Shown here: positions 54,456 to 56,319 of the stretch, piece by piece
Layout: each line of letters opens with the position of its first letter
Position numbering within the stretch: the stretch's first letter is position 1
From: an uncultured Sphingomonadaceae bacterium
GTDB lineage: Bacteria; Pseudomonadota; Alphaproteobacteria; Sphingomonadales; Sphingomonadaceae
Assembly: GCA_947493325.1 (NCBI GenBank)
Contig: CANLQI010000001.1
Location: forward strand, 1,058,501 to 1,122,500
DNA length: 64,000 nt
Reading direction: 5' to 3'
Made by a program: the position numbers and the translations under genes
The notes under the pieces: generated by a model
Seen by the model: the letters and a program-made list of their open reading frames with translations, nothing else
Told to the model about the DNA's origin: nothing
Database searches by the model: none

Positions 54456-55784
54456 TTATAAGGTTAAAAAACGTCCCCAGTCTTTCTCGGACAAACGGAC
54501 ATTTACAACCTGTTGATCACCATTTTCCTTTATAGATGCGACTTTGCCGTGTGCATGGAGCCATGCCAGTTTTTGACCGTCCGTCATGTCAATTGATATG
54601 GAACGCATGCGATGTGCAGCGATCAAAATATCCGAAACGAGCTGTGATAGCCGTTCTACGCCCTCTCCTGTCAATGCAGAAACTTTCTGATAAGGGCCGA
54701 CCGTTTTTTCAAATTCAGTGACGGCGGCGCGTTCTTCAGGGTCAAGCCGGTCCCATTTATTCCATGCCTCCACGATCGGAATAGGAATATTACCAGCATT
54801 TTGAAGGCCGGAGTTGATCCCCAGCGTTGCGAGAATATCCTCCACTTCTTGTTTTTGCGAACGTGTATCGGGATGCGATATATCCCGCACATGGATGATA
54901 AGGTCTGCAGACAGCACTTCTTCCAGAGTGGCCCGGAAAGCTGCCACCAATTCGGTGGGAAGATCGGATACGAAGCCCACCGTGTCGGACAATATTGCCT
55001 TTTCCAGCCCGCCTATTTCGACGGATCGCATGGTCGGGTCGAGCGTCGCAAAAAGAAGATCCTCTGCCATGACATCCGCGCCCGTCAGGCGGTTGAATAA
55101 AGTCGATTTTCCGGCATTTGTGTAGCCAACGAGAGCAATAACCGGCCACGGTGCTTTTTGACGTCTTTCACGGTGCAGCGAACGGGTTTTTTTGACTTGT
55201 TCCAGTTCCTTGCGCAATTTGGCCATGCGATTGCGGATCATGCGCCTGTCCGATTCAATCTGTGTCTCGCCGGGACCGCCCAGAAAGCCAAAGCCCCCGC
55301 GTTGGCGTTCAAGGTGGGTCCAGCTTCTGACCAGCCTCCCCGCCTGATAGTCAAGATGTGCTAGTTCCACTTGCAACCGTCCTTCGGCCGTTGCAGCGCG
55401 TTCCCCGAAAATTTCCAGAATCAATCCGGTGCGATCAATAACCTTGACCTTTAACCGTTCTTCCAAATTCCTCTGCTGAATGGCGGAGAGCGGTCCATCC
55501 ACTATCAAGAGCTCGGCTTCTTCAGCGTGTATGGCGGCTGAGATCTGGTCAATCTGACCGCCGCCGAATAATGTACCAGGCCGTGCGGTGCGAATGCGAA
55601 AGTCCAGCGTTTCACGCACATCAATCCCAATGGCAGCGGCCAGACCAACAGCTTCTTCCAACCGTGCTCTGGTATTGACGAGTCTTTTATTGCCAAGGTC
55701 CGGATATGCTATGACAGCGCGCGCGCCGCGGGCTATCTCACGGCGTTCATCGGTCGGAAAACTGCCGGTCCCCTGCCCGCTCAA
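54456..55784 (-). CDS. hflX: GTPase HflX
   Basis: A 442-residue ribosome-associated GTPase that splits stalled ribosomes. The HflX N-terminal domain ([29 protein letters not shown]) and the glycine-rich linker ([20 protein letters not shown]) precede the G domain with [22 protein letters not shown] and NKWD. The start is TTG 55784, overlapping the hfq stop (TTGA). The hfq-hflX pairing is conserved across proteobacteria. Confidence 0.96.
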
Positions 55785-56269
55785 TCTTCATCCGTTTCGT
55801 TATCACCAGATAAGTCCAATGGGCCGCTGGGCTGGATAGTGGACACCGCATGTTTATACGCAAGCTGCACCATGCCTTCCCGTTCTAACATCATGCAAAA
55901 TTGATCATAAGCAATGACTTGTCCTTGTAACATCACACCATTTACAAGGAACATCGTGACTGACATTTCAGATGTGCGCACATTGGACAGAAATATTTCC
56001 TGCAGCAGTTTGTTCTTACGGTTTATGGCATCCATGGCGTCTGCAAAAACATCTGTATCCATGGGCTGTGACGGCATGATGGTGGAGATGGCATGTTTAT
56101 ACACCAGCTGCGACTGACCGTCGCGACGCAGCAGGATCGAAAAATTGTCAAACCATGTGACAATCCCCTGCAGTTTGACGCCCTTGACCAGGAACATGGT
56201 CACAGGTGTTTTTGATTTTCTAAGTGTATTCAGGAACATGTCCTGTAAATTCTGTGCCTTTTCGGTCAT
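55781..56269 (-). CDS. hfq: Tandem-domain RNA chaperone Hfq (two Sm cores in one chain)
   Basis: The 162-residue protein holds two full Hfq cores. Core 1 (7-68) has [29 protein letters not shown] and YKHAIS. Core 2 (88-149) has [29 protein letters not shown] and YKHAVS. E. coli Hfq is a single core of about 65 residues plus tail and forms a hexamer; three of these chains could form the same ring. Core 2 lacks the basic rim patch (LRKSK in core 1, VRTSE in core 2), so the ring would alternate two kinds of faces. A 19-residue acidic/basic linker joins them. Translationally coupled to hflX. Confidence 0.96.
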
Positions 56270-56319
56270 TTTGACCCCCGGTCTTGGCGGCTTGATTACC
56301 GCTATATTCTGTTTAATTT

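Follow-up and report, generated by a model that had tools for sequence, protein, structure and literature searches.

The window, a 64,000-nucleotide stretch of DNA from an uncultured Sphingomonadaceae bacterium, encodes a two-core (tandem) RNA chaperone Hfq of 162 amino acids. The hfq reading frame occupies 55781..56269 on the reverse strand, as do its sub-features and hflX. It begins with ATG and is recognised by both Pfam and NCBIfam models; a GGGGG run at 56275..56279, 5 bases ahead of this ATG on the same strand, is its likely Shine-Dalgarno sequence. Conversion of the profile matches to window coordinates places core 1 at 56060..56248 (PF17209, 109 bits) and core 2 at 55820..56005 (PF17209, 84 bits), with both matches separated by a linker (56006..56059) in which a helix is predicted at residues 73-82. 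An acidic C-terminal tail (55784..55819), ending in the residues SGDNETDED, completes the protein. Downstream lies hflX (54456..55784), encoding the GTPase HflX; its TTG start and the hfq stop share bases in the sequence TTGA. Upstream are NtrX (NF051870, 735 bits) and a sensor kinase, which by its position is probably NtrY; none of its NCBIfam matches was above cut-off among the 25 of 50 listed. The genes between 52921 and 60069 comprise a clan AA aspartic protease (TIGR02281), a MazG pyrophosphohydrolase, HflX, Hfq, NtrX and the sensor kinase. Across the whole genome, a profile search with E up to 1 finds the two cores of 55781-56269 as the sole Hfq matches.

PF17209 (Hfq) matches the protein twice (E 5e-57, 189.8 bits in total against a cut-off of 27), and NF010691, the two-core Hfq model, covers residues 1-162 with 294.1 bits (cut-off 270). 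The two cores are identical at 37 of 71 aligned positions, and chance likeness of the halves is ruled out by a local alignment score of 187, compared with a maximum of 46 in 1000 shuffles. These results bear out the initial annotation, which had proposed two Hfq cores in one chain. An assembly artefact is likewise ruled out as the source of the tandem form, which recurs in each of the 74 family genomes that were read from among the 202 having two matches. A YKHA motif is found in each core; this motif, and the assignment of positions to the proximal and distal faces used below, follow the general picture of Hfq and in part the papers cited below.

AlphaFold2, run on an alignment of 47 sequences that used 46 of 80 nearest-relative loci, models the single chain with the full Sm helix and strands twice over, plus a helix in the linker. 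The mean pLDDT is 87.9, with means over 10-residue blocks of at least 92 within both cores, and the pTM is 0.83; two of the five models were poor (pLDDT 47.7 and 43.4). The pTM suggests that the cores are placed in a defined relation within one chain, a single-chain value being no proof of a ring. In the predicted structure, core 1 resembles the Sm fold of 6gwk_R (Z 9.4, rmsd 1.1, 71 aligned) and core 2 that of 1hk9_E (Z 8.9, rmsd 1.1, 67 aligned). Foldseek and VIA-align 2 compare single chains and matched one core each, so that they are silent on the relative arrangement of the cores.

The tandem form is characteristic of the family. In a sample of 296 genomes from the order, 213 of them from the window's family and with matches counted by eye, 202 of the 213 family genomes carry two Hfq matches and 11 carry one, in agreement with the suggestion in the initial annotation that the architecture is lineage-wide. 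Both cores lie within one open reading frame in 74 of 74 genomes read among these 202. The genera it had named hold as well, since the two-domain form is in print for Zymomonas and named Novosphingobium genomes encode a two-core protein. No tandem Hfq was seen in the 83 genomes from other families of the order (77 with a match), nor in 285 genomes elsewhere in the class (233 with a match). Among 398 genomes sampled across the phylum, 18 matches reached E 1e-50 or better, all of them from the family; tandems as diverged as nine of those in genus g12 would escape this threshold. Two genomes show a second Hfq-like match of another kind: a separate 99-residue frame on another contig in the class sample (L202; G354 C3) and a 38-position piece on another contig in the order sample (L203; G001 C82).

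Gene trees point to one origin. An HflX tree of 92 rows has a branch (SH-aLRT 86) that separates all 64 tandem rows from the rest, and with rooting on the class rows the 11 one-core family members (L143-L153) fall outside the tandem group. This is one quick gene tree of moderate support, in which the outgroup is not one group and the long rows L143 and L157 are perhaps misplaced. A tree of the cores themselves, with 56 of each, recovers core 1 as one group and core 2 as another (SH-aLRT 87 and 99); it has 65 columns, on which the one-core groups cannot be ordered. Repeated gain or loss of the tandem form was rejected, as the HflX tree needs one change. The simplest history suggested by that one gene tree is a single duplication, without loss in the rows examined. 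The eleven one-core family genomes may show the state before duplication.

To compare the halves, core 1 and core 2 of each of 127 distinct tandem proteins were aligned, in E. coli numbering, with 53 one-core Hfqs from the class. The tandems comprise 71 from the nearest-relative search, 55 from other genomes and the window protein, and the sample is unevenly spread because so many come from that search. Before counting, L081 and L082 (from the genome of the window itself) were dropped, together with 11 tandems identical to another row between the core ends; L193-L203 were excluded from the counts, and L204-L219 served only for an extra comparison within g12.

In the window protein, core 1 presents the rim residues N14, R17, K18 and K20, an arginine patch of R48 and R49, and K29 and K32 on the distal face (E. 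coli positions 28 and 31). The corresponding residues of core 2 are S95, R98, T99 and E101 at the rim, E129 and R130 in the patch, and N110 and M113 on the distal face. The patch thus reads LLRRDG in core 1 and MLEREG in core 2, an exchange of arginine for glutamate, and further differences from core 1 to core 2 are K31 to M and M63 to Q in E. coli numbering. The rim strings given by the initial annotation, LRKSK in core 1 and VRTSE in core 2, are correct, and so is its contrast of K with N before the conserved glycine.

These differences are fixed or nearly fixed across the sample. Position 28 is lysine in core 1 of all 127 tandems and asparagine in core 2 of all 127, as it is in 53 of 53 one-core Hfqs. 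The pairing of 28K with 28N holds for every genus label, 51 names or codes that may overlap, and for one set without a genus. At position 31, core 1 has lysine in 123 tandems and arginine in 4, core 2 has methionine in 124, alanine in 2 and leucine in 1, and the one-core Hfqs have lysine in 53 of 53. Summed over positions 28 and 31, the charge is +2 in every core 1 (127/127), zero in every core 2 (127/127) and +1 in every one-core Hfq (53/53). The charge at 28 and 31 per pair of cores is therefore the same in total as in one-core Hfq, but it is gathered on core 1. The window protein fits this pattern, with 28K and 31K/R in core 1, 28N and a neutral 31 in core 2, and an acidic tail.

The rim follows the same division. 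Positions 16, 17 and 19 are all positive in core 1 of 125 of the 127 tandems and in all 53 one-core Hfqs, compared with core 2 of a single tandem. Core 1 keeps the first patch arginine in 125/127, and core 2 replaces it by glutamate in 102/127 or glutamine in 19/127. Core 2 also has Q63 in 125/127 and L41 in 114/127 (Q at 41 in the window protein). R16 is still present in 101 of the 127 core 2 sequences, so the core-2 rim is weakened and not wiped out. This rim is variable (2.0 bits per site), which points to a relaxation of constraint more than to selection of a novel surface.

Most of the base-pocket residues are shared between the halves. Across the 127 tandems, Q8, G29, Q52 and K56 are invariant in both cores and F42, Y55 and H57 nearly so; more broadly, proximal positions 8, 42, 55, 56 and 57 and distal positions 25, 26, 29, 30, 32, 33, 52, 60 and 61 are invariant or nearly so in both. 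The initial annotation had envisaged RNA-binding faces split between the halves. Its rim and distal-face differences recur consistently in the 127 tandems, but the proximal U-pocket and most residues of the distal pockets are present in core 1 and core 2 alike. A simple split of the faces is therefore not supported; what differs is the rim and the charge at 28 and 31. The best reading is the alternating, split ring of that annotation, corrected so that the rim and 28/31 charges would alternate and the base pockets would not. The alignment of relatives that it had advised as a check, with conservation read per half, shows unequal halves, core 2 being the less conserved (mean 0.85 bits against 0.52 in core 1).

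Excerpts of published work attach functions to these positions. K31 and R16 are sites of face mutants in E. coli Hfq: K31A brings an almost four-fold drop in captured RNA-RNA pairs, and with R16A such pairs nearly disappear, although part of the regulatory activity is retained (PMC12262471, a preprint). A simulation of Pseudomonas Hfq led to the proposal that N28, through its backbone, and I30 contribute a weak pocket in which the third base of an ARN repeat would sit (PMC8121710). The asymmetry of the cores thus touches surfaces known to matter.

The tandem architecture also bears on the position of the acidic tail. Between core-1 Pro64 and the LQ motif of core 2, the linker measures 15-24 residues in the 127 tandems (median 21) and has a median net charge of 0; the 15-residue linkers belong to four diverged g12 proteins, and most are longer. 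The last 8 residues carry a net charge of -2 or lower in 121 of 127 tandems and 50 of 53 one-core Hfqs, which indicates that the acidic tail has been kept and now stands behind core 2. In Caulobacter Hfq, according to the available excerpts, the acidic tip of a 15-residue tail packs on R18, K19 and K21 of the adjacent protomer (PMC6561178), residues taken here as E. coli 16, 17 and 19. The linker lengths are compatible with a Caulobacter-like path of the C-terminal extension. The proposed pairing of the tandem tail with the core-1 rim is an argument from charge and not an observed contact. Tail and rim can also be uncoupled: L127, a tandem from outside g12, keeps the whole core-1 rim although its tail is less acidic (-1). 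The same combination occurs in L008 (CALMBN010000020.1), but its Hfq frame extends by about 90 residues unlike other tails, which looks like an assembly error in a metagenome contig.

A positive Hfq rim, made up of positions 16, 17 and 19 and both patch arginines, promotes pairing of sRNA with mRNA. From the patterns above we infer that hfq underwent one internal duplication in a common ancestor of most members of this Sphingomonadales family, and that the resulting two-core form replaced the one-core form. The most likely assembly is a trimer of chains that would build the customary six-core ring, in which core 1 and core 2 occupy alternate places. Core 1 would retain the positive annealing rim and gain a second distal positive residue, 28K beside 31K/R, and core 2 would act as a largely neutral spacer at the rim and at 28/31 that keeps the proximal U-pocket and most distal base pockets. 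The extension of core 1, that is the near-neutral linker, may lie on the weakly charged core-2 rim by the Caulobacter path, and the acidic tail of core 2 may reach the positive core-1 rim of the next chain and gate it. With the linker on the core-2 rim and the tail on the core-1 rim, the model explains why the core-2 rim was the one lost and why the tail persists behind core 2. The ring would then offer three gated annealing sites in place of six. We assign this explanation as a whole (single duplication, alternating trimer ring, divided cores and tail gating) a probability of roughly 0.62. A stricter version remains tentative and falls somewhat short of even odds: an obligate, two-sector directional ring in which linkers fill the core-2 rims, tails gate the next core-1 rims at three annealing sites, and the 28/31 charge on alternate subunits allows mRNA and sRNA to be loaded in register on core 1.

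An alternating trimer could also have arisen by relaxation only, with core 2 having merely lost its rim because three patches are enough, no specialisation of core 2 and no directed partner for the tail. Overall conservation is lower in core 2 (0.85 bits, as against 0.52 in core 1), and core-2 positions 13, 17 and 19 vary without one strongly favoured residue (at 17, D in 37, E in 21, K in 20 and N in 14 of 127), as such an account would expect. However, several core-2 changes are near-fixed (M31 in 124/127, Q63 in 125/127, L41 in 114/127 and the patch glutamate in 102/127), and loss in core 2 offers no explanation for the gain of 28K in 127 of 127 core 1 sequences. Relaxation only is thus unlikely as the full account, if by no means far-fetched.

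Other assemblies would do away with alternation. Six chains might form a core-1 ring tethered to a core-2 ring, each with homogeneous surfaces; each core looks ring-competent and a linker of 15-24 residues could in principle span two rings, but linkers of that size are comparable with the 15-residue tail by which Caulobacter Hfq contacts a neighbouring subunit, and the pTM of 0.83 suggests a defined placement of the cores in one chain. Both points tell against tethered rings, an arrangement that we consider improbable. Cutting of the chain, or an inner translation start, would instead release freely mixing single-core proteins. The window protein does have in-frame ATG codons at 65, 70 and 79, located where core 1 ends and within the linker, and all 47 aligned proteins share Met65, though as part of core 1. 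Yet inspection reveals no evident Shine-Dalgarno sequence ahead of any of the three, and Met70 and Met79 each occur in only 7 of the 47, which leaves separate single-core products very improbable. The alternating ring with divided cores and a gating tail is preferred.

The window protein belongs to an established family of two-core Hfqs, and both the two-domain form and the question of a trimer have been in print since 2010. In the excerpted text of Yang et al. 2010 (PMC2877685), Hfq of Zymomonas mobilis (ZMO0347) is described with two Sm-like domains in one chain, as in the window protein, and likewise for six other Sphingomonadales species; whether only three chains make the ring is raised there as a test. 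No residue-by-residue comparison of the halves was met in these excerpts. Excerpts of PMC7064620 report that the Z. mobilis sRNAs Zms4 and Zms6 are unbound by Z. mobilis Hfq and that its role as an sRNA chaperone is not shown, which makes such a role presumptive for this group. NF010691 / PRK14091 (RNA chaperone Hfq, 176 positions), which the window protein matches over its full length, is a naming model only. The solved structure closest in sequence to core 1 is that of Caulobacter crescentus Hfq (PDB 6gwk; E 3e-34, about 80% identity). Caulobacter Hfq has an acidic tail that reaches the rim of its neighbour, as proposed here for the tandem tail (PMC6561178, in excerpt). However, it has one core per chain, giving six equal rims and six tails, unlike the two cores per chain of the window protein.

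Eukaryotic Lsm/Sm hetero-rings consist of specialised, ordered Sm subunits, which are separate proteins, seven per ring. An alternating Hfq would resemble them in arrangement only. Such hetero-rings are mentioned in the excerpts of PMC2877685, the only paper to treat the two-domain form in a sample of open-licence Hfq literature from PMC, represented in part by excerpts, which makes this a weak negative. In the same sample, and with the same weak weight, the charge asymmetry of the halves and its match to a single acidic tail were not met. PMC7546472 makes no mention of Sm, hexamer or trimer, and the excerpts of PMC9797736 and PMC10725011 do not mention a two-core architecture. The architecture itself is thus already known, and the fixed difference between the halves appears to be the new element.

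This fixed charge asymmetry turns the trimer question of 2010 into specific mutations. Hfq is normally built from six identical subunits, so that any mutated face is changed six times over. A naturally occurring Hfq in which the full rim is found on only half of the cores makes the number of rim patches and acidic tails that a ring needs testable by point mutations, and point mutations in the single gene could also ask whether RNA loads in a fixed register. A large group of environmental bacteria uses an Hfq unlike that of model organisms, which bears on the study of sRNA regulation in them.

Genus g12 departs in part from the general pattern of tail and rim. The acidic tail is absent in 9 of its 22 proteins (L139-L142 and L215-L219), and a core-1 rim charge is lost in 6 of these 9 compared with 0 of the 13 with a tail (Fisher p 0.001, ignoring kinship); the remaining 3 tail-less proteins keep the core-1 rim. 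As a natural test this joint loss is weak and suggestive, and it may represent one event in a subclade whose cores have diverged throughout. Read by eye, the nine tail-less proteins are related to one another and strongly diverged, with a shortened start of core 2, Tyr42 (8/9) and Gln57 (4/9) in core 1, and Phe55 (7/9) in core 2. They are possibly losing or changing the annealing function. The 16 further g12 proteins compared all have 28K in core 1. Exceptions to the 28/31 rule outside the 127 tandems are L217 and L219, with Arg31 in core 2, and L219 also has Ser28 there. The tandem proteins that score under the NF010691 cut-off come from 22 g12 genomes, two of g11 and one of g30.
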